Of a stretch of 64,000 nt of DNA, positions 29,352 to 61,136 are shown in pieces. The stretch is from positions 62,001 to 126,000 of the forward strand of contig NZ_FRAY01000002.1 of assembly GCF_900142475.1 (NCBI RefSeq), written 5' to 3'. This DNA comes from Fibrobacter sp. UWH4 (GTDB lineage: Bacteria; Fibrobacterota; Fibrobacteria; Fibrobacterales; Fibrobacteraceae). The translations under genes were made by a program, and so were the position numbers. Every line of letters begins with the position of its first letter. The stretch's first letter is position 1. A model generated the notes under the pieces. It was not told where the DNA came from. It searched no databases and was given only the letters and a program-made list of their open reading frames with translations.

Positions 29352-29417
29352 ACTAATTCAGAATTCGGAGTTCAGAATTAGGAATTCAGAATCGTTGGAA
29401 TTCCGAATTCCGAAATC
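29352..29417. repeat. GAATTC-rich intergenic repeat
   Basis: TTCAGAATTCGGAGTTCAG, AGGAATTCAGAATCG and GGAATTCCGAATTCCG form imperfect direct and inverted copies. The same words occur at 47023-47057 inside a gene and at 57150-57191. Confidence 0.75.
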
Positions 29418-46410: not shown

Positions 46411-46439
46411 GAGGTGCGACACAGGTCGCACCTCTTTTT
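46411..46439 (+). terminator. Terminator of the GH5 gene
   Basis: GAGGTGCGAC-ACAG-GTCGCACCTC is a perfect 10-bp stem followed by five T residues. Confidence 0.9.
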
Positions 46440-48033
46440 AGTTTTTATCGAATACGGCAAAATATTCGTCGCGGTAGGCAAGGTGCCAGCGGGGGGATTT
46501 TGCGAGAGTCTGCAGCAGGGCGTCCCAGCGGGCGTAATACTGCAGCGGGAATAAGGCTCGGTCGATGCCTAAGGAATCGGCATCCGACGGGAATCGCTCC
46601 GGATGGGTCGCGTACGCGAGATAATTTTCAAAGAAGTCGGCAGTTTTTAGAATGAAGCGCCCATCGATGTAAATGGAATCTGCGGGATTCACAAAGGCAA
46701 GGTAGCCCCCGGCGCGGTCATCATTAAAAAGTCGCCCCTGGTGCGGATGTTCTTGCATCCACCGCGTTGCTTCGACGGGAACACGCTGGTAGGCGACCAT
46801 AGAATTGTCGTAGGCGGAAAGGGAACGCGCCCAGAGACCCAAGATGAAGAAAGTCGGCAGTAGGCAGTAGACTGTAGGAAGAGGAACGCGAAGGATGAGG
46901 GACGAGGTCGCAACCTTCGGTTGCTTTGAGGAGGTTGTCAACACTCCTATTAGTACCGGTAAGAACAGCACAAAGTTGCGCTCGGCAACAAGGGCAAGGA
47001 TGGCTGTTATCATAAGCCATATCAATTCTGAATTCCGAGCTCCAAATTCTGAATTACGGCAAATGAAACGTTTTATTGCAAAAAAAATTCCAACCAGGCA
47101 CAATACAATCATCAAGGCACTTTGGAGTGTATTCTCCCCCGCCAGCAGCAAGGTAACCGGCGAGCGGTTCTCTGCGATTTCACTGGCAAAGATTGCAGCA
47201 GAAGGAGTCATACCCAACAGACGGTCCAGCAAGCCGAACGGATACAGGAACAGGTTCAATCCCTCACGGTGCAAGAAGGGCATCGCAAACAACGCTGCCA
47301 CAAAAGCGACGCGCCACGTAACAGCCTTTGGCGGAAAAACTTTTCCACCTTTGCGAGAATCCCAAATTTTCGCAAGCAGCACAAGCAACGCAAAAAACGG
47401 ACCGAGAATATAAAGCCCCTGACATTTGCACCAAAGGAATTGAACGACAAGGACTAAAGTTACAAACATCAGTTTACAGGTTTTAGAGGATTGAAAACAA
47501 GTTATTGAATCTTGAAATGGCTCTCTGGATCCCATCGCGCGATGCGCTCCAGGATGATCGTTACTTGAAAATGCCGCATCCCGGAGGGAATCGCTATGAC
47601 AATATCCAAAAATACGAGGCAAGACATTCCAGTAGATTCCGAGGAACAGGAGTGAAAAAAGCACTGGACGAATCTCAAAATGATAGCGGAATATAAAAAG
47701 AAGAACAACAGCAACTAGAGGTAGACTCATGCAACTAGAGAATGCCGCGACTTTTCGGGTTTCGCAACGACATTTTTGGGAGGCCGGCAGCAAGAAAAGT
47801 GTAAACGTGACGCCCCAAAGAAACGCCTTGAACGCAACGAGAAGCGGAGCGCCACCGAGACTGTAAACAAAGCCTACCACCAGCTGAAAATATTCATGCA
47901 CATTCACAACGGGCGTTCGCACTGGAGTCCATGTCGTCACCCACTCCCGGGCACATGCCAAATGCCACCAGATATCCGTATCGGTCAGTGGAAAGATGGA
48001 AAAAAGTATGACGGCAATCGACAGCAACCGCAT
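46438..48033 (-). CDS. Polytopic membrane protein (GT-C-like), with repeat sequences inside the frame
   Basis: The 531-residue protein has about ten membrane segments and starts with PLTDTDIWWHLACAREW, like the D.D.WWHL..G motif near the first loop of many GT-C-fold glycosyltransferase-like proteins; the soluble C-terminus has FVNPADSIYIDGRF. Three stretches match dispersed intergenic repeats read in frame: about 46850-46905 (LPTVYCLLPTFFIL), 47023-47057 (NSEFGARNSEL) and 47513-47600 (SLRDAAFSSNDHPGAHRAMG). The frame stays open through all three. The start lies 6 bases from the TIGR02171 gene upstream. Confidence 0.65.
   Translation of the reverse strand: MRLLSIAVILFSIFPLTDTDIWWHLACAREWVTTWTPVRTPVVNVHEYFQLVVGFVYSLGGAPLLVAFKAFLWGVTFTLFLLPASQKCRCETRKVAAFSSCMSLPLVAVVLLFIFRYHFEIRPVLFSLLFLGIYWNVLPRIFGYCHSDSLRDAAFSSNDHPGAHRAMGSREPFQDSITCFQSSKTCKLMFVTLVLVVQFLWCKCQGLYILGPFFALLVLLAKIWDSRKGGKVFPPKAVTWRVAFVAALFAMPFLHREGLNLFLYPFGLLDRLLGMTPSAAIFASEIAENRSPVTLLLAGENTLQSALMIVLCLVGIFFAIKRFICRNSEFGARNSELIWLMITAILALVAERNFVLFLPVLIGVLTTSSKQPKVATSSLILRVPLPTVYCLLPTFFILGLWARSLSAYDNSMVAYQRVPVEATRWMQEHPHQGRLFNDDRAGGYLAFVNPADSIYIDGRFILKTADFFENYLAYATHPERFPSDADSLGIDRALFPLQYYARWDALLQTLAKSPRWHLAYRDEYFAVFDKN
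47023..47057. repeat. GAATTC-type repeat within a coding sequence
   Basis: CAATTCTGAATTCCGAGCTC...ATTCTGAATTACGG belongs to the same family as 29352-29417 and lies in a loop of the 46438 membrane protein. Confidence 0.65.
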
Positions 48034-48038
48034 CTATG

Positions 48039-50801
48039 CTATTCCAAAGTAATTAACAGGGAATCCAGACGGGCAGTCAACTGTTCTGCACCTTTGATAC
48101 TCAAATGGTCCGTATTGAGAGCCATCTGGTCGATGTAATCATGATTTCCGTTACGGTTTTCATCAAGAACGTTAAAATGAGGGATGCGATCAGCCAATGC
48201 CTGAACGGCTTCTATATACTTTGCGGCGGCAGAACGCTGAGGGCCGTAACGGCCCCAGGAACCCGTTTCTCGATAACGGGGATTCTGGGGGAAGATCACC
48301 CCGATCACGTTGATTTGCAAACGGTCCATTTCCTTCGCGAAAGATTCTAGACGAGCCAAGTTCCAATCCAGAGCCTGCGCTTGCGTCTTAGACCAATTAG
48401 AATCAGACTCCACCAAAGGGACGCCCCATTCAGCCGCTTCATTTCCCACCCAGCCCCTTGATTGTCCGTAGACCTCGATCGCAATCGTCGAAAAAGGCGA
48501 AACGGCCTCGACGATCTGCGAAAAATCAGCCATATCCTCATTTTCCCAGAAGAAATGGTTCTTGTCATAAATGTAACCTGGAATATTCATGAACAGGTAA
48601 TCAGAGAAATCTGTTTTATTTTGCCACAAATCAAAATCCAGCGAAACAACAACTGTCTTCAAATTTTTCAGATGCTTCGCCCCATAATTTTCTGCAACAT
48701 AAAGCGAGGCGTTCATATCATTTCCCGAATGTCCCATATTCAAGGCGAATCCCGACTTTATTTTGGTTGCAACAATGCCGTCTTCGGTTCTGGAGCTGCC
48801 GACACACAGAATCTCCACCTGGTTCGCATATTTCCACATCAGGTTCATCTTATAGGCCAACGCCTCGTGCGGCCAATCCTGGCCTTCCACAAAATACACT
48901 CCCGCACTGTCCAGGTCAAAGACAAATTCGCTCACCGAAGTCTGGACATCACTACTCCACAAGCTCGGGTGCCAAAGTTCATCCCCCTCTACAAGTTCCA
49001 CGATGTTGCCGTCGTTTAAGTCAATAAGTGCAATTTTTGTATGGGCGCCGTTCGCATTCGCAAGGGTCGCCACGGCATAATTACCGTTCGTCACCCATTC
49101 GCTATGGTCAAAGGAATAACCCGCAGGAGCAGCAAGAGTCTGAACCAGATTGCCGACGCTATCAACAACAAGAAGACGTTCGTGCGTTCCATAATTGACA
49201 CCCGCATATTCGCGACCTGTTTTTCCACCGAAGTCAAGGAACAATGTACGCTTGGAGCTGTCCTTGGCAAGCGACGCATTGCAAGCCTGTTCGGCCACAC
49301 CCTCATTTTGATACCACACCGTATCGTGGGCACTCGACATTACCGTTGAGCCTTTATTCGCCAGGCGGGCTCGCAGAAGTCTCGCCCCTGTCACGGCAAG
49401 GGTATTGTCTTCGCTGATACCGCCGTGGTAAGCTCCATCAAAAAGCTTTTGCGGCTTGCCGAATTTACCATTCGCAAAAGGCACCTGCCAGGTTGATGCC
49501 GACTTGAAAGCGGTTTCTTCCTTGTTGTTGCCCGCATCGGTCACATAGACGATTACCGTTTCACCTGATTCTAGCACTCGCCAACGCGGAATCGCAGCCG
49601 ATTCAACTTCCAGTTTCACCAAATTGGAAACTGCTGCATTCAGATCCCGCACATAAACATCAGATTTTCCAGACACTCCTTCAAGTCCCGTACAAAAAGC
49701 GACATATTTGCCGTCAGGAGAAATTTCAGGATGGTAAACCTCAAGCGTATCCTCTATTTCATACACAGAAAGATTTCCGCTGGAATAGTCGATATACGCT
49801 AAATTTCCCGACTTATCGTCCCGGAAAGCCAACTTGACCCTATAGGTTTGAAATAGGGAACGCACCGTTGCGGAACTCGTCAAAGGGACTACGCGACTCG
49901 ATGACGCCTTACCATCGTTTCCCATCCAAGTCGCCCCAGGAATCGCACCAAAAGCAAGACGGAAACCCACATAATCAGCCCTCGTCGACGACGTCACCGT
50001 GTATACATCCCCGCGACTGTAAAGAGTAACGGATTCCGCTGAATTGCGGTAACTACCTCCCTTCACGATACGCTGTCCAAGCGCGCCACCATCGGGAGCT
50101 CCGACAAAGTTCGTCACCGTCGTATCGCGGAACTTTCCGAGCCAGTCGTTCACCCACTCCATGGCGTTTCCCGCAACATCACAAAAATGCACAGACGAAT
50201 CCGTTTTTTCGCAGACGGGATGCAACCTGTAATTCGAATTTTCGGAGGTCCAACCGCCAGCTACGTTCCAGCTCGCCGTTGTCACAAAAATCCATTCCGC
50301 TTCGGTCGGCAAACGATACGCGTTCTTTTCGGGACGGTACGCAAAGCCTTCCAAATTTAAGCAATGTCCTTCCGAATCAAAAATGGCGCGGCTGTAAGTA
50401 TAAGCCGTATCAAAGCCCTCGGACTTGCTACGTTCATTTGCAAAAAGGACCGCATCGTAGTAGGTAATGTTCGTCGCAGGAACCGAAGCCTCACACGACA
50501 AAGAAAGTCCCCTTGCCGTCATCAAATCGTTAAATTCAGCACAGGTGACTTCGGTGCGTCCCATCGAAAAATCATAGTCAAAACGAGCCTTCATCGACGG
50601 TCGCTCATTTGCTTTCGCCGTCACCTCGTTGGTTCCCAAGAGAATCGATTCGCCAGTAGCCTTGATACGGTGCATTCCTACTAACGAATCACCCTCAATC
50701 TCTATGTTCGTAGAATTTTCCGAAAACACCCCTTCCGAATTGGAACAAGCTGCCCAAAAGATGAATAATATGACCGGTAAAACAAATCTCAAGAAGTCCA
50801 C
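48039..50801 (-). CDS. TIGR02171-family lipoprotein 1 (FGE-like, beta-propeller, SGNH-like)
   Basis: This 920-residue protein belongs to the Fibrobacter paralogous family TIGR02171, which averages over 900 residues and has no known function. It has a lipoprotein signal (C19 in FWAAC), an FGE-sulfatase-like domain (about 65-290: YRLPTEAEWIFV, GNAMEWVNDW, IVKGGSYRNS, ADYVGFRLAFG), PD40 propeller repeats (about 310-620: YHPEISPDGKYVAFCTGLEGVSGKSDVYVRDL) and an SGNH-like end (CVGSSRTEDG; NTDHLSIKGAE). FGE cysteines are absent, so the first domain is probably binding only. The position three before the final histidine is N, unlike D in its two relatives. Confidence 0.85.
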   Translation of the reverse strand: MDFLRFVLPVILFIFWAACSNSEGVFSENSTNIEIEGDSLVGMHRIKATGESILLGTNEVTAKANERPSMKARFDYDFSMGRTEVTCAEFNDLMTARGLSLSCEASVPATNITYYDAVLFANERSKSEGFDTAYTYSRAIFDSEGHCLNLEGFAYRPEKNAYRLPTEAEWIFVTTASWNVAGGWTSENSNYRLHPVCEKTDSSVHFCDVAGNAMEWVNDWLGKFRDTTVTNFVGAPDGGALGQRIVKGGSYRNSAESVTLYSRGDVYTVTSSTRADYVGFRLAFGAIPGATWMGNDGKASSSRVVPLTSSATVRSLFQTYRVKLAFRDDKSGNLAYIDYSSGNLSVYEIEDTLEVYHPEISPDGKYVAFCTGLEGVSGKSDVYVRDLNAAVSNLVKLEVESAAIPRWRVLESGETVIVYVTDAGNNKEETAFKSASTWQVPFANGKFGKPQKLFDGAYHGGISEDNTLAVTGARLLRARLANKGSTVMSSAHDTVWYQNEGVAEQACNASLAKDSSKRTLFLDFGGKTGREYAGVNYGTHERLLVVDSVGNLVQTLAAPAGYSFDHSEWVTNGNYAVATLANANGAHTKIALIDLNDGNIVELVEGDELWHPSLWSSDVQTSVSEFVFDLDSAGVYFVEGQDWPHEALAYKMNLMWKYANQVEILCVGSSRTEDGIVATKIKSGFALNMGHSGNDMNASLYVAENYGAKHLKNLKTVVVSLDFDLWQNKTDFSDYLFMNIPGYIYDKNHFFWENEDMADFSQIVEAVSPFSTIAIEVYGQSRGWVGNEAAEWGVPLVESDSNWSKTQAQALDWNLARLESFAKEMDRLQINVIGVIFPQNPRYRETGSWGRYGPQRSAAAKYIEAVQALADRIPHFNVLDENRNGNHDYIDQMALNTDHLSIKGAEQLTARLDSLLITLE

Positions 50802-50807
50802 CCTCCC

Positions 50808-53558
50808 CTATTCCAATCCATTTAAAATGAGGTCAACAGTCGCCGTAAAGGACTTGGCACCTTCGATACACAAATGGTCGTCATCCACGAACCACTCACT
50901 CGGATAACCATGATTACCCATCCTGTTTCTATCAATAAATTTAAAATTGGAATAACTTTTTTCAAGTTCTTGAAAACGGGAAACAAATTGTTCTGCAACA
51001 CTTCTACGCAACCCATAACGACCATAGGCACCCGTATTCTGATAATCCGGATTTTGAGGGAACAAGATTCCAATGACAACGATATCCTTATTTTGTGCAC
51101 TTTGAATAATGTCTACAAGAGACTCAAAACTTTTTTCATACAAATTCTTTTCCGAATCATACGCGGAACTATCTCCTTCAACCAACGGAGGATTAGCCCA
51201 ACCGCCGCAGAACGGGTTCATAATAGCGCCACGATCAACTTCATGCAACAAGTACGGTTTCACCTCTAAATAGTTTTTCGTATACTCAAGCAAACCTTCT
51301 GGATAGCCGTCTTGCCAGTAGTTATGATTTTTGTCGTAAACATAGCCCGGATATTTCTTATAAGCATTCTTGAATAAGTTATCACTATTATCGCCATCCG
51401 GCTTGTTCCAGAAATCAATATCCAAAGACAGCACAACATATTTCAGCTTTTTCAGATGAGGGAACAAATACAATTCAAGAAAATCCCTTGACATGTGAAT
51501 GCTATTGGGAGTCTGCGCAAAATTCACCATAAAGAAACGGTTACTCATCAACGATGGCCACAAGGAGTACAGAGGTCTCGAAGAACCTACCACAGCAACA
51601 TTGACGGAATCCCTGTATTGCCACAGCAATTCCATATTGTAGCGCATCAGGGCTACTCCCCAGTCATCACCATCGTTCATATAAATTCCAGCACTATCCG
51701 AATCAAGCGAGATATTCACCTCATTGTTTTTTTCTTGACGGATCCACAAGTTCGGATGCCAAAGTTCATCACCTTCGGCAAGGTCCACCACGTTCCCTTC
51801 GGTCAAGTCAATTAGCACCATTTTCGTATGGGCGCCGTTCACATTCGTAAGCGTTGCTACGACAAAGTTACCATTCGAAGCCCATTCGCTATGATCAAAA
51901 GAATATCCCGTCGGAGCAGCCAGCGTCTGAATCAAGTCACCTATACTATCAACAACAAGAAGCCGCTCGTGCGTGCCATAATTTTCTCCAGCATATTCAC
52001 GCCCAGTTTTGCTTCCAAAATCAAGGAACAGAGTACGTTTGGAACCATCTTTCGCAAGAGACACATTACAGGCCTGTTCCCCATTGTACCATACAGTATC
52101 ACGGCCGGAAATGCGGGCACGAAGAAGGCGAGCCCCCGTTACAGCAAGGGAGTTGTCTCCGCTGACACCCCCATGATAAGCTCCGTCAAAAAGTTTTTGC
52201 GGTTTACCGAATTTGCCATTTGCAAAAGAGACCTGCCAGGTAGACGACATTTTGAATGCTGATTCTTCCTTGTTGTTCCCCGCGTCACTCACATAAACAA
52301 TCACCGTATCGCCCGAATCAAGTACGCGCCATCGCGGAATTGCCGCCGATTCAACCTCCAACTTGACTAGGTTCAAGCCTTCGGCACTCAAGTCCCGCAC
52401 ATAAAGGGACGATTTTCCCGATACACCTTCAAGCCCCGTACAGAACGCCACACGCTTGCCGTCCGGAGATATTTCCGGATGATAGACATCAAGGGTATCC
52501 GCAATTTCAACCACCGAAAGAATTCCGCTAGAATAATCTACATAGGCCAAATTTTCAGTCAAATCGTTACGGAACGCGAGACGAACCTGATGCGCTCCCA
52601 CCACGGAACGTAACGTCGCAGAGCTCGCAAGCGGCACAATTCTGCTTGATGCAGCTTTTCCGTTATTTCCCATCCAGACCGCAGCAGGAATTGCGCCAAA
52701 AGCGAGTCGGAAACCGACATAATCTGCACGAGTCGAAGATGTCACCATATACACGTCGCCTCGACTATACAAATTAATCGATGTTGCAGAATTGCGGTAT
52801 GAGCCCCCCTTGACAACACGCTGTCCCAAGGCACCTCCATCAGGGGCACCGACAAAGTTCGTCACCGTCGTATCACGGAAAACGCCTAACCAGTCGTTGA
52901 CCCATTCCATGGCGTTCCCCATCATATCGCAGAACTGCACCGTTGAATCCATCTTTTCGCAAACACGGTGCAGTTTATAATCGGAATTTTCCGCAGTCCA
53001 GCTATGCTCCGCATTCCATTCGGACGACGCCACTAAAATCCATTCAGCTTCCGTCGGCAACCGGTAGGCGTTCACCTCCGGTCGATAAGCAAAGCCTTCT
53101 AAGGCTGTACAATGCTTTTCGGAGTCAAAAACAGCCGACGCATAGGTATAGGCCGTATCAAATCCCTCGCCCTTGCTTCGTTCATTCGCAAAAAGAACCG
53201 CATCATAGAAAGTGAGACTTGTTGCCGGAAGGCTATCATTATCGCAGTCTAAAACAAGTCCAGAAACATTTTCCATCACCGAATTGAACTCTCCACAGGT
53301 CACCTCATGACGCCCTATCGAGAAATCGTAGTCAAAACGGGCCCGCATTTCGGGGCGTTCATTCACCTTCGCCTTGGAATCCAAAGTTCCAAGAACAGTA
53401 ACGGATTTTAGCGTCTGCACACGCAGCATTCCTGCGAGGGTATCCGTAGAAACATCCACCAAAGGCTTTTTTTCAGCCGACACGCCCACCGAATTAGAGC
53501 AGGAACAAACCAGCAGGGAAAAGAATCCGCATATCAACGCAAGCCATTTCATATTCAA
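50808..53558 (-). CDS. TIGR02171-family lipoprotein 2 (FGE-like, beta-propeller, SGNH-like)
   Basis: The 916-residue second copy is closely similar to the first through the FGE-like and propeller domains (for example GAPDGGALGQR and SPDGKRVAFCTGLEGVSGKS), but its C-terminal third is nearer to the third copy. The lipobox is VCSC (C20). The SGNH-like end has VVGSSRPLYSL and VDDDHLCIEGA, keeping D-x-x-H, with a shared FPQNPDYQNTGAYGRYGLRRS block between. It follows the third copy by 28 bases and precedes the first by six, so all three are likely one transcript. Membrane anchoring at the cell surface or periplasm is expected. Confidence 0.85.
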   Translation of the reverse strand: MNMKWLALICGFFSLLVCSCSNSVGVSAEKKPLVDVSTDTLAGMLRVQTLKSVTVLGTLDSKAKVNERPEMRARFDYDFSIGRHEVTCGEFNSVMENVSGLVLDCDNDSLPATSLTFYDAVLFANERSKGEGFDTAYTYASAVFDSEKHCTALEGFAYRPEVNAYRLPTEAEWILVASSEWNAEHSWTAENSDYKLHRVCEKMDSTVQFCDMMGNAMEWVNDWLGVFRDTTVTNFVGAPDGGALGQRVVKGGSYRNSATSINLYSRGDVYMVTSSTRADYVGFRLAFGAIPAAVWMGNNGKAASSRIVPLASSATLRSVVGAHQVRLAFRNDLTENLAYVDYSSGILSVVEIADTLDVYHPEISPDGKRVAFCTGLEGVSGKSSLYVRDLSAEGLNLVKLEVESAAIPRWRVLDSGDTVIVYVSDAGNNKEESAFKMSSTWQVSFANGKFGKPQKLFDGAYHGGVSGDNSLAVTGARLLRARISGRDTVWYNGEQACNVSLAKDGSKRTLFLDFGSKTGREYAGENYGTHERLLVVDSIGDLIQTLAAPTGYSFDHSEWASNGNFVVATLTNVNGAHTKMVLIDLTEGNVVDLAEGDELWHPNLWIRQEKNNEVNISLDSDSAGIYMNDGDDWGVALMRYNMELLWQYRDSVNVAVVGSSRPLYSLWPSLMSNRFFMVNFAQTPNSIHMSRDFLELYLFPHLKKLKYVVLSLDIDFWNKPDGDNSDNLFKNAYKKYPGYVYDKNHNYWQDGYPEGLLEYTKNYLEVKPYLLHEVDRGAIMNPFCGGWANPPLVEGDSSAYDSEKNLYEKSFESLVDIIQSAQNKDIVVIGILFPQNPDYQNTGAYGRYGLRRSVAEQFVSRFQELEKSYSNFKFIDRNRMGNHGYPSEWFVDDDHLCIEGAKSFTATVDLILNGLE

Positions 53559-53586: not shown

Positions 53587-56352
53587 CTACTCAAAAGTCC
53601 TCAAGACTGCATTGATCCGCCTCGTCATTGTCGGTGCACCGATAATGCACAAGTGATCCGTATCAGCAGCAAATGCATCAGGATAATCGTGATCCCCCAT
53701 CTTGTTTTCGTCCATGAGCTTGAAATTGGGGTAAGATTCATCCAGTTTCTTGATTTTTTCAATCAGTTTCTTGGCAGTACTCCTACGAAGGCCATAACGA
53801 CCAAAAGCACCTGTTTTCTTGAAAGCAGGACTTTGTGGGAAAATCACCCCGACCACATTGACATCGTGTTCTTGCGCTTTTTTGATAATCCCTTCCAAGG
53901 TAGCCATATTATCATCTAACAGATACTGCTGATTATCATAGAGAGTCGAATCCATTTCTGCTTCTACATCTTCCCCCCACGAACGGCAATTTATCCCTAG
54001 AAGGCGCCCGCGGTCTCTCACAAAATTAGGTTCATCCGAAACAGTCAAATAATTTTCAGTATACTCTAGCAAGCCCTCCGGATATCCCGATTCCCAATAC
54101 CCATGATTCATATCATAAACATAGCCTGGATAATCAGCATAACGAGTCGCAAAGAAGTTATCCCCTCCAGGACCATCGATTTTATACCAGAAATCAATAT
54201 CCAGCGAGATGATAATATATTTCAACTTCTTAAAATGCTTGTACACATACAGATCGAGAATATCCCTTGATGTATAAATTGAATTCGGCGTCTGAGCCAA
54301 ATTAACCACAAAAAAATCTTTGTTGAAAGACCAGGGAGAAACCGAATTCAGCGGCCTCGAAGAACCAACGACAACCACATTCGCCGAATCGCGATAGCGC
54401 CAAATCAATTCCATGTTGAAGCGCATTAAAACGGCGCCCACATCGTCATCGGCTTTCATATAGACGCCCGCACTGTCAGGTTCAACTTTAAATTTTGAAA
54501 AATTCATCGGCGTATACGCCCAGAAATTTGGATGCCAAAGGTCATCCCCTTCCACAAGGTCCACGACCTTACCGTCATCCATCTGGACAAGAACGATTTT
54601 TTCGTGGGAGCCATTCGAATTCGAGAGAGTCGCTACAGCCAAATCCGAACGGCCACGCACCCATTCCGCATGGTCAAAAGTATATCCGTCCGGAGCAGCC
54701 ACCGATTGGATCAATTTTCCGGTGCTATCAGCGACAAGAATTCGCTCATGAGTCCTGTAGCTTTCGCCCACGAATTCCTGCCCCGCTTTTCCTCCGAAAT
54801 CAAGGAACAACGTCTTTTTTGCAGAATCCTGCGAAAGCGAAACATTGCAAGCCTGTTCTCCTCCATACCACACTGTATCGCGGGCATTCCCCGTCACCGT
54901 CGCCCCCGACTCTGCAATTCTTGCACGAAGCAGACGCGCCCCCGTTACGGTAAGCCGCCGATCCGTTGATATTCCTCCGTGATAGGCTCCATCAAACAGT
55001 TTTTTCGGCTTCCTAAAACTTCCCTTTCTAAACGGGACTTGCCAAGTTTCCATTTTTGCAAAGGTAGAATTTTCCTTGTTGTTTCCCGCATCGGTCACAT
55101 AAACGATCGCAGTGTCGCCGTTTTCAAGGATGCGCCATCTCGGAATGGCAGCATTTTCGACATCGAGTTTCACTACGCTTCCATCTTCAATGTCCAGAGA
55201 CCTCACGTATATTTCCGACTTTCCCGAAACACCCTCAAGCCCCGTGCAGAAGGCAACAAACTGACCATCCGGCGAAATCTCAGGATGGTAGACCGGCATC
55301 GTGTCCGCAATTTCCTTTACATAAAGGACTCCGCTTGAATAATCCAGAAGCGAAAGGTTTCCCGAAATGTTATTCCTGAAAGCAAGCCTCATCTTGTAGG
55401 TTTTCGTGAATTTTCGGATTGACGCGGTATTCAATAGCGGCAGGGCGCGACTCACAATCGTACTACCTTTATAATCAATCCACATCGCTTCGGGAATACT
55501 ACCAAAACCGAGACGGAATCCTACATACACCGCTCGCGTCGACGAGGTTACAGCGTAGACATCTCCACGACTGAATATGAAAAGATTCTTTTCTGTCGTC
55601 TGGTAAGAGCCGCCCTTAATCACTCTTTCACCAAGGCTCCCTCCATCCGGCGCCCCCACATAATTCACGACTGTCGTATCGAGAAATTTGCCAAGCCAAT
55701 CATTTGACCATTCCATAGCATTTCCCACCATATCGCAGGGAACGTTTGCATTTTTTTCTAGCGAACAAACCTTGTGCAACTTATAGTCCGAATTTTCGGC
55801 CACCCATCCTTTTTTAGGATTCCAATTCTTGTTTGCAACAAGCATCCACTCTGCCTCGGTGGGCAAGCGGTACGCGTCTACTTCAGGATGAAATACGAGG
55901 CCCTCGATTCCGGTACAATGATGAGCATCGTCAAAAGACACATCGGTATAGGTATAAACCGTATCCAGACCGATAGCCTTGCTCATTTCGTTCGCATAAA
56001 GAACAGCGTCGTAATAAGTCAGATTCGTCGCAGGAAGGCTATCGTTTTCGCATTCCAATTTAAGCCCTGTTTCAGGAACCATCTTTGCATTGAAATCGCC
56101 ACAGGTTACCTCATGACGCCCTATAGAAAACGAATAATCAATCTGAACCTTCATGGAAGGGTGCTCACGATCCAGCGACAAGGGAGCATTCGTTCCCAAA
56201 GTAACCGATGCATTCGTGGGTTTTACACGAAGCATTCCCGGAAGAGAATCCTGCTTAAGTTCCACACGCATTTCATCGGGAGTTTCCGGCCCTACCGAAT
56301 TTGAGCAGGCTAGCAACAACGATGTTATGACAAAGACTAGGAATAATCGCAT
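53587..56352 (-). CDS. TIGR02171-family lipoprotein 3 (FGE-like, beta-propeller, SGNH-like)
   Basis: The 921-residue third copy has lipobox LLAC (C16), the FGE-like domain (YRLPTEAEWMLVANKNWNPK, GNAMEWSNDWLGKF, VIKGGSYQTT, VYVGFRLGFG), the propeller (SPDGQFVAFCTGLEGVSGKS) and the SGNH-like domain (VVGSSRPLNSV, ADTDHLCIIGA with D-x-x-H). It is the most diverged of the three in the first two domains. It is the first TIGR02171 gene in the run, 46 bases after the transglutaminase-like gene. Serine in GSS and the final histidine are the candidate catalytic pair; activity is untested. Confidence 0.85.
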   Translation of the reverse strand: MRLFLVFVITSLLLACSNSVGPETPDEMRVELKQDSLPGMLRVKPTNASVTLGTNAPLSLDREHPSMKVQIDYSFSIGRHEVTCGDFNAKMVPETGLKLECENDSLPATNLTYYDAVLYANEMSKAIGLDTVYTYTDVSFDDAHHCTGIEGLVFHPEVDAYRLPTEAEWMLVANKNWNPKKGWVAENSDYKLHKVCSLEKNANVPCDMVGNAMEWSNDWLGKFLDTTVVNYVGAPDGGSLGERVIKGGSYQTTEKNLFIFSRGDVYAVTSSTRAVYVGFRLGFGSIPEAMWIDYKGSTIVSRALPLLNTASIRKFTKTYKMRLAFRNNISGNLSLLDYSSGVLYVKEIADTMPVYHPEISPDGQFVAFCTGLEGVSGKSEIYVRSLDIEDGSVVKLDVENAAIPRWRILENGDTAIVYVTDAGNNKENSTFAKMETWQVPFRKGSFRKPKKLFDGAYHGGISTDRRLTVTGARLLRARIAESGATVTGNARDTVWYGGEQACNVSLSQDSAKKTLFLDFGGKAGQEFVGESYRTHERILVADSTGKLIQSVAAPDGYTFDHAEWVRGRSDLAVATLSNSNGSHEKIVLVQMDDGKVVDLVEGDDLWHPNFWAYTPMNFSKFKVEPDSAGVYMKADDDVGAVLMRFNMELIWRYRDSANVVVVGSSRPLNSVSPWSFNKDFFVVNLAQTPNSIYTSRDILDLYVYKHFKKLKYIIISLDIDFWYKIDGPGGDNFFATRYADYPGYVYDMNHGYWESGYPEGLLEYTENYLTVSDEPNFVRDRGRLLGINCRSWGEDVEAEMDSTLYDNQQYLLDDNMATLEGIIKKAQEHDVNVVGVIFPQSPAFKKTGAFGRYGLRRSTAKKLIEKIKKLDESYPNFKLMDENKMGDHDYPDAFAADTDHLCIIGAPTMTRRINAVLRTFE

Positions 56353-56398: not shown

Positions 56399-57148
56399 CT
56401 ACAAATGGTCCGGCAAACGACTTTTCGCAATTTCTTGATTTACCTTGATTCCAGGATATTCCGGGAAAAATTCCTCGGCCATGCGGTACCAGGTCAGGGC
56501 CCTACGCAAATCCGTATCTAGGAACAGATTTCCCATATCAAAAGCGGCCAATCCCACAAACTGCGTAGAGGTCAACGGCTTAAATTCAAGCCCCGTCCAG
56601 GGGCCAGCCTTGTACTTTTCCCGGTACTCAGCATCCGTATAAGAAAATCCCCGACGATTAGGTTCCAAATTGGCCGCCGTTTCAGAATTTCCATAGCGCA
56701 AGAACACATGCCCCGGAAGGAGAATCACCGAAAGCGGAACATTCCTTTCCTCAGAAACCATCATCGCCAGCCACGAAAGTCCCATGCAGCCGGATTTTCT
56801 CGTTTGCAGAACACGGGTTGGCAAAATGGCATTTTCCGAAACCGCAGAATCACCTGCACCCGCAAATTCAATGTCCCAGAAATCCCACAGAAGTGACTTT
56901 AGACTAAGCAAGGGATCCCCAGATCGGGCAAATGAACTGTCAAAATAGGCAAGCCCCGCCTTCCACGCCACAACCGAATCCATGCAGCCAGGCATTTTGT
57001 CTTCAAAAGAACAGGCTGCGTCGCGAAACCCCATCGTTTCTGTGCGACCACTCCAAAGCACCAGTGCCAAGGACATCGCAAATACGAGAATCAACACCGG
57101 CCAGAAGAATCGTTTAGCAAGTGCCGAAATATAAGAGAAAAGGCGCAT
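56399..57148 (-). CDS. Membrane-anchored transglutaminase-like protein
   Basis: The 249-residue protein (start 57148, MRLFSYISALAKRF) has one membrane segment (about 14-33) and a transglutaminase-like core: SGCMGLSWLAMMVSEERNVP (cysteine about 119), LLPGHVFLRYGN (histidine about 146) and ANLEP, the Cys-His-Asp/Asn order of SirB1/transglutaminase-core-2 proteins. A C-terminal segment with YRMAEEFFPEYPGIKVNQEIA is TPR-like. An in-frame extension to 57205 translates the GAATTC repeat. It may be a peptidase or a scaffold in the cluster. Confidence 0.7.
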   Translation of the reverse strand: MRLFSYISALAKRFFWPVLILVFAMSLALVLWSGRTETMGFRDAACSFEDKMPGCMDSVVAWKAGLAYFDSSFARSGDPLLSLKSLLWDFWDIEFAGAGDSAVSENAILPTRVLQTRKSGCMGLSWLAMMVSEERNVPLSVILLPGHVFLRYGNSETAANLEPNRRGFSYTDAEYREKYKAGPWTGLEFKPLTSTQFVGLAAFDMGNLFLDTDLRRALTWYRMAEEFFPEYPGIKVNQEIAKSRLPDHL

Positions 57149-57149
57149 T

Positions 57150-57191
57150 CCAAGTTCCTGATTCCGAACTCCGAATTCAGAATTCCGAATT
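57150..57191. repeat. GAATTC-type repeat between the AlgX-like and transglutaminase-like genes
   Basis: TTCCTGATTCCGAACTCCG and AATTCAGAATTCCGAATT belong to the family at 29352-29417. Confidence 0.7.
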
Positions 57192-59151
57192 AAAGTCCGT
57201 CCCATTCCATCGGGGATTGCCAGAAGTCACGGGCGGTCATCATGTAAATGACCAGTCGCTTGCTCTGCATATCCTTCTTCATTTTCATCATACGGTGATA
57301 CACGCCGGGGCCGCCACCCCAACTGGTAAGCACCTGCACATCGAGGCCCGTTGCATAGGCCAGGAGCGCCCCTGGGCCACCGCTCTTCTGGTCCACGGAT
57401 TCAAACACACCCGTAAACGAATCGCCCATCAAGAGAATCGGCGCATTCTTGCCGCCCTTGTAAGCTTCGGTGCCCTTGAAAATCTTCATTACAGACAAAG
57501 TGTCAGCAGGATACTTGGACTTTTCGGCATCGGGCATATGAGCCACAAGGTCGCCCTCGCGAAGTGTCTTGGTTTCCTGCATATTGAGCGTTCCCGGTTG
57601 AGCTCCAGATTCGCTGTACCAGGAATACTGCGTCACGCGGGAAGCCAACTGTTCAAGCGCAGCAAGCATTCCCGGAAGCGCCCAGTGCGTATCGTAGCGC
57701 TGGTAACTAAAGTGGGGCGGTTCATCCCCCGCCTTTGCGGCCATGAGCGCCGGGTAGACATCCAGGACATCGAGTCCCGCGGCAAGCATTTCGCGGGTAA
57801 ATTCACGACCCGCCGGATTCACGCAAAGATCCGCAGCAGTTCCTTCTACAAGGCGTTCCCCGTAAATTTCTTCCTTCACGGGAATCGGAACCACCAGCAG
57901 CTGGACGCCAAGGGAATCAAGATACTTCTTGAGTTCCAGAAGGCGAGGCAACGGATTGTGCAAGCTATCCTGCGCCGTAATCTTGCCTGCGGTCAGGTAA
58001 TTGGCGTTGCGGCGGAACCAGAGCATTCCATTCGATGCCCAGGCGTTCTGTTCCTTGGGCAATTTATGGAGCATTTTCAAAAGTTCATCGCGGAATTTTT
58101 GCGTCGCATCGTTCTCCGGGCAGGAACCTTCGACCGAAGCAAGCGTCTGCAGGCGGAACGCAGAACTCGTATCAAGAGCGCGATTCACGGGAACCACCTC
58201 GCCCGCCTCGGCCAGGGAATCGGCGGTTCGCTTTGCACGCAAAGCCTCGTCGCTCAAGCGGAAGGCCGGAGCCTCAAAAGCAACCCACATCGGAGTCCCC
58301 ATCGGGTTTCCGCGCATCACCGCAAACGGCCTGTTCTTATCACCTTCCCAGGGCGCACCCGCCGTATGCGGTTCCAAGTCCGTATTCAAGGTCGGATACC
58401 AGTAAGACGACAACGTTCTTGCCCAATTCATGGCATCGTCGGCATTCATTTCGCCCGTCAAGTAGTAATTCAAGATTTCGGCTGTTTCACCCTTTGACGC
58501 CAGTTTCAACTTTCCGTAGAACACGGTACGCCCTGTCCACAAGGCAGGCATCACTTCCACCCACCATTCCACGGAACCATCGCTCAAGGGCACACCCCAC
58601 AAGCGTGAAACGGTCTGGAATGCACGGAAAACCTCGGGTTCGTTCCACTTGACCGCCTCGACCGCATTCAGCAAAACACCCAGCGAATCGTTCCCGGTCT
58701 GCGCATAGAGAATCTTTGACAAAGGTTCCCAGGCCAGGGGCTGTCTTTCTGCAACAACGGCGGGTTCATGTTCCGAAAGCGAATCGAGCATCGGGAACGG
58801 GTATTCCGCAAGCTTTGCCGACGCCATTTTTCCCGCATAGTTTTCAGGCTTTTCGTCCTTGCCCGCCTGGCGGATCGGATTGTTGAAATAGGCCGCAAAA
58901 TCAAGCGCAGCCAAGGTCGGTTTATCGACAACACGCACCTGCTTGTCGGCACTCATCACCTTCAGTTCAAAAACCGTAACCGGCGTAGAAGGTTGCGGAG
59001 GCATCACCTTCGGGCGTTCCGATTCCTGCACAGCACTTTTTGCGGAACCTTCCACGGCATCCGGTTTACTAGAGGCACAAGCCGAAAGCCACACAGCCGC
59101 CACAGAAGCGACCACCGTCAAGCCAAACATCGTCTTTATCGAAAAATTCAT
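57190..59151 (-). CDS. AlgX/AlgJ-like SGNH lipoprotein (putative polysaccharide O-acetyltransferase)
   Basis: The 653-residue protein has a lipoprotein signal (C25 in LSAC). An N-terminal unassigned region (about 30-370) is followed by an AlgX/AlgJ-type SGNH domain: ANYLTAGKITAQDSLHNPLPRLLELKK, VVPIPVKEEIY, YDTHWALPG (D-x-H about 487-489), LLMGDSFTGVFES (nucleophile serine about 577) and LVIYMMTARDFW. AlgX/AlgJ proteins add acetyl groups to exopolysaccharide in the periplasm with an MBOAT partner, which is not seen here. It opens the six-gene run that contains the TIGR02171 genes. Confidence 0.78.
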   Translation of the reverse strand: MNFSIKTMFGLTVVASVAAVWLSACASSKPDAVEGSAKSAVQESERPKVMPPQPSTPVTVFELKVMSADKQVRVVDKPTLAALDFAAYFNNPIRQAGKDEKPENYAGKMASAKLAEYPFPMLDSLSEHEPAVVAERQPLAWEPLSKILYAQTGNDSLGVLLNAVEAVKWNEPEVFRAFQTVSRLWGVPLSDGSVEWWVEVMPALWTGRTVFYGKLKLASKGETAEILNYYLTGEMNADDAMNWARTLSSYWYPTLNTDLEPHTAGAPWEGDKNRPFAVMRGNPMGTPMWVAFEAPAFRLSDEALRAKRTADSLAEAGEVVPVNRALDTSSAFRLQTLASVEGSCPENDATQKFRDELLKMLHKLPKEQNAWASNGMLWFRRNANYLTAGKITAQDSLHNPLPRLLELKKYLDSLGVQLLVVPIPVKEEIYGERLVEGTAADLCVNPAGREFTREMLAAGLDVLDVYPALMAAKAGDEPPHFSYQRYDTHWALPGMLAALEQLASRVTQYSWYSESGAQPGTLNMQETKTLREGDLVAHMPDAEKSKYPADTLSVMKIFKGTEAYKGGKNAPILLMGDSFTGVFESVDQKSGGPGALLAYATGLDVQVLTSWGGGPGVYHRMMKMKKDMQSKRLVIYMMTARDFWQSPMEWDGL

Positions 59152-61042: not shown

Positions 61043-61136
61043 ATGAGTCATCCTGGAGCGTGTCATCCTCGAAGCGTAGCGGAGGGGAGACGGGATCCAG
61101 CACTGGATTCCCTCCCTTCGGTCGAGAATGACATAA
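61043..61136. repeat. Dispersed GTCATCCT...AGAATGAC repeat overlapping a gene end
   Basis: GTCATCCTCGAAGCG...GGGATCC and GGATTCCCTCCC...GAGAATGAC form an imperfect inverted pair. Related pieces occur at 14010-14065, 19459-19626 and 47513-47600. The last 20 or so codons of the 61063 gene lie in it. Confidence 0.7.

Follow-up and report, generated by a model that had tools for sequence, protein, structure and literature searches.

Dispersed, mostly intergenic repeats translated in frame in loops of a membrane protein and other proteins of Fibrobacter

Described repeat systems and the Fibrobacter repeats

Rickettsia palindromic elements (RPEs), intragenic REPs, and heptamers in ORFs are already known. 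RPEs are described, in the passages on them in PMC3733652, as small palindromes that occur between genes and in frame inside genes, truB included. CGTC and GTAG REPs also occur inside ORFs, among them truB (tRNA pseudouridine synthase B) of several Proteobacteria (Di Nocera et al. 2013, PMC3733652). A CGTC-tagged REP has an unpaired CGTC (or TGTC/CCTC) tag, one 8-9 bp stem, and a 4-5 nt loop (PMC3733652). A general excess of heptamers is reported in PMC4679880 and PMC4692102. Published heptanucleotide repeats include those of Mrazek et al. 2007 (cited in PMC4679880), TAACTGA repeats, which are also found inside ORFs (PMC4679880), and GGGAATC repeats (PMC4692102). The text of Di Nocera et al. 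2013 (PMC3733652) does not mention Fibrobacter, and a search of open-licence papers retrieved no account of intergenic repeats inside genes for this genus. What is new is the occurrence in Fibrobacter and the reuse of the same loops by unrelated repeat classes.

The window is a stretch of 64,000 nt from Fibrobacter sp. UWH4 (G000:C2:62001-126000), whose genome contains 3.70 Mb in 22 contigs. Positions without a contig name are those of the window. Genome-wide repeat counts were drawn from 864 kb of stretches of this genome (23% of it). Our own gene predictions placed 672 genes there (91% coding) and split it into 785 kb genic and 79 kb (9% of bases) outside predicted genes. The orthologue records that carry names are from Fibrobacter or other Fibrobacterota, with the single exception of a MAG labelled Bacteroidales.

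We read the elements as dispersed small repeats in permissive loops that would have spread without regard to reading frame and then been filtered by purifying selection, and we give this a probability of roughly 0.8. In location they are like RPEs, since they lie in frame in genes whose orthologues lack them (TruB and the GT-C loops). They differ from RPEs in that Fibrobacter belongs to another phylum, loops are shared by several repeat classes with no relation to one another, and heptamer arrays, not palindromes, make up two of the stretches. The palindromes share with CGTC-tagged REPs a stem that starts with AT, a CCA-type tail, intragenic copies that include truB, and the lack of a dedicated transposase (here, no PF01797). 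GTC is recurrent at the tag position, with no fixed base before it. In place of the single 8-9 bp stem, they have an outer stem of 6 bp, 2x2 internal loops, a variable inner stem, and mostly a triloop. Because stem and loop are built differently, we call them CGTC-like and not CGTC members.

The heptamers resemble the published heptanucleotide repeats in that period 7 is in excess, arrays are mainly intergenic, and a stop-free strand is tolerated in ORFs. Fibrobacter differs in having many unit families per genome with degenerate units, and its in-ORF copies are located within conserved enzymes rather than chiefly at the ends of proteins. RAYT-mobilised GTAG REPs and REPINs are also small dispersed palindromes, but Y1_Tnp (PF01797) had no match in the UWH4 genome, and mobilization of its REPs by a RAYT was rejected. 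The domain was present in 10 of the 37 genus genomes searched.

Repeats in three loops of a GT-C-like membrane protein gene

The focal gene (46438-48033, minus strand) encodes a polytopic membrane protein of 531 aa, as judged from its ORF, its orthologues, and structure matches of a model. Orthologues were present in about 30 of 36 genomes from the same genus. The protein had no match in Pfam and none in a sequence search of the PDB. Its AlphaFold model, made with 30 aligned orthologues, had a pLDDT of 75 and a pTM of 0.77. The best PDB structure match of the model was the C-mannosyltransferase DPY19 (E 6e-6), with weaker matches to PglB, AglB, and Pmt4. Because of these matches the protein is called GT-C-like, resembling GT-C glycosyltransferases. 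Three tandem paralogues lie at 48039-50801, 50808-53558, and 53587-56352. Their shared DNA blocks are 61-80% identical, and the first paralogue contains an FGE-sulfatase-like domain (PF03781).

Repeat sequence occupies three inter-helix loops of the focal gene (A, B, and C), and the 46438-48033 frame on the minus strand is open throughout. Low-confidence segments of the model fall in loops A and C. No Rfam family matched at the repeat sites. The original prediction placed three intergenic repeat families in frame here, at 46850-46905, 47023-47057, and 47513-47600. All three stretches are repeat-related and the frame runs unbroken through them, as had been proposed, and the translation of dispersed, mostly intergenic repeats inside a gene is supported. 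The phenomenon proved more general than first described and some details changed; the count was too low, with five elements of four kinds in total.

Loop A spans about aa 143-181 and contains two palindromes. The first is a REP-like GTCAT-type palindrome of 33 nt at 47526-47558 (minus strand), ATCATCCTGGAGC-GCATCGCGCGATG-GGATCCA, one of 33 family copies in the 864 kb. Its hairpin has a predicted energy of -12.0 kcal/mol (RNA parameters). It is the real element behind a GGATCC...CCAGGATGA repeat that had been drawn as one unit over the whole of 47513-47600. The second, which that reading overlooked, is a decayed GTCAT-type palindrome at 47567-47600 (minus strand), GTCATAGCGATTCCC...GCGGCATTTTC. 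Its identity was judged by eye against GTCATTGCGAG...GGCAATC copies in orthologues L010 and L025, and the palindrome scan of orthologue loops did not pick it up. Loop A is about 33-36 codons shorter in the closest orthologues (manual count).

Loop B contains a GAATTCN heptamer stretch at 47023-47057 (minus strand). It encodes the peptide RNSEFGARNSEL (aa 326-337), placed between predicted helices 302-325 and 333-349. Its periodicity is weak alone and was reached by 14 to 53 of 300 shuffles. Against a heptamer profile made from intergenic arrays it scored 23.8 bits, rank 7 of 672 genes. It shares 85% identity with an inverted array between genes at 29354-29386, within the GAATTCN comparator that the array scan placed at 29354-29416. 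The net length change relative to the nearest orthologues is only about +2 codons (manual count), so the repeat looks like a replacement of the old loop and not a clean insertion. Another GAATTC heptamer array (57163-57191) lies at the 5' end of a predicted gene (56399-57205, minus strand), whose true start may be downstream.

Loop C spans aa 369-396 and contains a period-7 array and a GGTCGC hairpin. The array (46850-46905, minus strand), with units GTAGGCA/GTAGACT/GTAGGAA, encodes SSLILRVPLPTVYCLLPTFF (aa 377-396). It was recognized by its periodicity, and orthologues L014 and L015 contain arrays related to it. Lag-7 matches in its core (46852-46877) number 16 of 20, which 0 of 300 order-2 shuffles of the gene reached. 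The end of the array runs into predicted helix 385-407, overlapping its start, and contributes to that helix. In orthologues L014, L019, and L038, heptamer-encoded residues coincide with the start of a transmembrane helix in the focal model.

The families had been said to recur between genes elsewhere in the window. This was borne out for GAATTC (29354-29386) and not for GTAGGCA, since GTAGGCAGTAG occurs once in the window, in the loop C array; intergenic relatives lie elsewhere in the genome (C1:334506 and C2:408946). The adjoining hairpin, at 46907-46930 (minus strand), had been overlooked. It belongs to a GGTCGC-(stem)TTC(stem)-GCTTTGAG family. The 864 kb contain five further copies of this GTCGC...GC[TA]TTGAG family outside predicted genes and one more inside a gene.

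The 30 GT-C orthologues range from 466 to 595 aa, and the variation is located exactly at the repeat-bearing loops. Period-7 arrays of several unit families were found in 8 of the 30, all within alignment columns 423-536. Further orthologues carry GTCAT-type palindromes, and different species have different repeats at these loops. The borders of the elements in the focal gene are approximate, because its nearest orthologues are about 65-70% identical.

Orthologues with the same residues and no length polymorphism had been named as the sign that the similarity is coincidental, and the comparison gave the opposite. Loops that simply have a biased composition would fit the weak periodicity of loop B, but not its profile rank, nor a full REP with matching arms and a GGATCCA end in loop A, nor the shortest orthologues being free of repeats while others carry different ones. 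Copies above chance at other sites and orthologue length variation at the repeat-bearing sites were both observed. Coincidence is largely refuted and very improbable.

Palindromes and heptamer arrays across 864 kb

In the REP-like class of the 864 kb, the arms match in 33 copies (ATTC/GAAT or ATCC/GGAT) and are mixed in 2, a compensatory pattern. The stems begin with complementary AT and the tail is mostly CCA, as in CGTC-tagged REPs. Both features were built into the search pattern, having first been noticed in unbiased k-mers and contexts. GTC is recurrent in the tag and is preceded by c, t, a, or g. Most copies fold with a 6-bp outer stem, a 2x2 internal loop, a variable inner stem, and mostly a triloop. 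Loose and stricter palindrome scans gave too many chance hits in coding DNA for a clean total. The stricter scan ignored the first tag base, and the tag CTCAT was hence no true control.

A REP-like cluster at 61047-61132 extends in part over the 3' end of a gene prediction. Within it, one complete REP is nested in the apex of a second (61047-61099), and an inverted REP comes next (61104-61132). Such nesting, with outer arms that differ, occurs twice in the 864 kb (61047-61099 and C2:439395-439447).

Period-7 tandem arrays number 49 in the 864 kb. Periods 4-6, 8-11, 13, 16, 17, and 19 gave 0-6 arrays each; periods 12, 15, and 18 gave 11-19 each, mostly genic, and period 14 echoes period 7. Order-2 shuffles gave 0 arrays at every period (464 kb, stricter cut-off). 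Unit families in the genome include TTAGTGG, TTAGAGT, GAATTCN, TACTGCC/ACTTCCT, and TCTCGTC. In L042 (16409-16475) a heptamer array switches strand half-way and forms a long imperfect heptamer palindrome. Co-insertion of a heptamer array and a REP as one unit was rejected as a general rule, with 2 of 33 REPs at most 60 nt from an array compared with 6.5% of random intergenic points. TruB often carries both.

The arrays are depleted about 41-fold per base in genes, with 37 outside predicted genes (79 kb) and 9 inside (785 kb). No more than 5 are located deeper than 90 nt in a gene. In their ideal forms, the TTAGTGG and TTAGAGT families carry stops in all frames. These families account for 18 of the 44 nongenic or gene-edge arrays and 0 of the 5 deep genic ones. 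With five deep arrays this absence is suggestive (Fisher P=0.14). Of the six frames of the nongenic and gene-edge arrays, 47% are open on average (125 in all for the 44 arrays). We estimate that stops, together with the one in three lengths that keep the frame, account for a roughly six-fold depletion. Protein tolerance would cover the remainder.

Two ways of keeping the frame open had been offered, insertion in frame-preserving lengths and selective removal of the other copies. If elements or target duplications came in multiples of three, insertion would itself preserve the frame, and no ORF in the studied sets is broken by the repeat loops. But REP lengths cover all residues modulo 3 (0/1/2), at 5/8/9 between genes and 6/12/8 among 26 copies in loops of four proteins (manual count). 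The heptamer unit is coprime to 3, and a 41-fold genic depletion requires strong counter-selection. Because the lengths are spread in this way, and only the net change in a gene is a multiple of three, frame-preserving insertion is quite unlikely and selection is the favored option.

Under the preferred reading, spread followed by selection, the three length-variable inter-helix loops of the focal gene contain CGTC-like palindromes, degenerate period-7 arrays, and a hairpin of one other family. The repeats would arise and spread over the chromosome irrespective of reading frame, plausibly by slippage-like expansion for the heptamers and, for the REPs, by some form of copying that is transposase-independent or driven by the host. 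Purifying selection would eliminate copies that cause a frameshift, bring stops, or strike structured regions. The survivors would sit in permissive loops, linkers, and tails, where they may be translated into nearly neutral peptides such as NSEFGIRNSEF, CHPGA..GDRIQG, and TVYCLLPT. Counting against this reading, no pair of near-identical strains was seen to differ by an insertion, the nearest focal orthologues being those at about 65-70%, and loop B has the look of a replacement.

Repeats in TruB and other enzymes

Deep genic repeats were found in TruB (two elements), LpxB, CoaBC, a DEAD helicase (two), a pectate lyase, a peptidase-MA protein, and the focal gene. In CoaBC the repeat sits in the linker between the Flavoprotein and DFP domains, and in the pectate lyase it sits in a Ser-rich linker. 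The repeats in CoaBC, the helicase, the pectate lyase, and the peptidase are outside Pfam domain matches. In-frame intergenic repeats are documented by these cases inside essential protein genes of Fibrobacter. Dozens of natural filled and empty comparisons (TruB, CoaBC, LpxB, and GT-C) could help to trace the spread of heptamer arrays and of REPs that lack a transposase, and to identify the sites at which a protein accepts 10-40 foreign residues. For annotation, peptides that recur, NSEFGIRNSEF or HCERSEAIS for example, derive from repeats and are not domains.

The TruB repeat loop is flanked by GEVV.QD and LE.VLPQF. It is shortest in L105 and L108 (301 aa), where repeats are absent. The site corresponds to the passage from residue 111 to 117 in the solved E. 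coli TruB (1k8w). Different repeats fill the loop in at least 14 of 30 species (manual tally). The fillings were mapped on a species tree from three genes, with parsimony judged by eye. Repeat-bearing forms are scattered on this tree, which suggests that the loop was filled about eight separate times; gene transfer is an alternative.

The inserts may instead be retained for usefulness, through altered protein activity or a DNA or RNA hairpin function in the mRNA. The refilling of the TruB loop in about eight lineages and the published truB REPs of other bacteria (PMC3733652) would agree with this. So would REP orientation, which is 26:1 sense in the variable loops of four proteins (manual count, shared ancestry included). 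This excess counts against frame-blind insertion alone, which does not predict such a bias. On the other hand, one loop is filled by differing families, frames, and lengths, close relatives manage without inserts, and a permissive site would also give recurrence. We consider usefulness improbable. Inside UWH4 genes at large the orientation is about 7:6 (manual count), and a genome-wide sense-strand bias of genic REPs was rejected. The frames used by REPs respect stops. The third frame of GTCATNCTGA reads TGA, and REP copies that contain it in sense orientation occupy just the remaining two frames.

The TruB loops of L083, L084, and L087 have a heptamer array and REP ends in common. Their REP inner stems are different, a pattern that replacement or invasion of the apex would produce. 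These inner-stem changes and the nested copies at 61047-61099 and C2:439395-439447 are the basis for a more speculative reading. An active, transposase-independent process in Fibrobacter might copy REP-like hairpins, also into REP apexes, and expand heptamers. Loops like that of TruB would then be standing landing sites that supply new peptides to essential enzymes. We regard this as unlikely.
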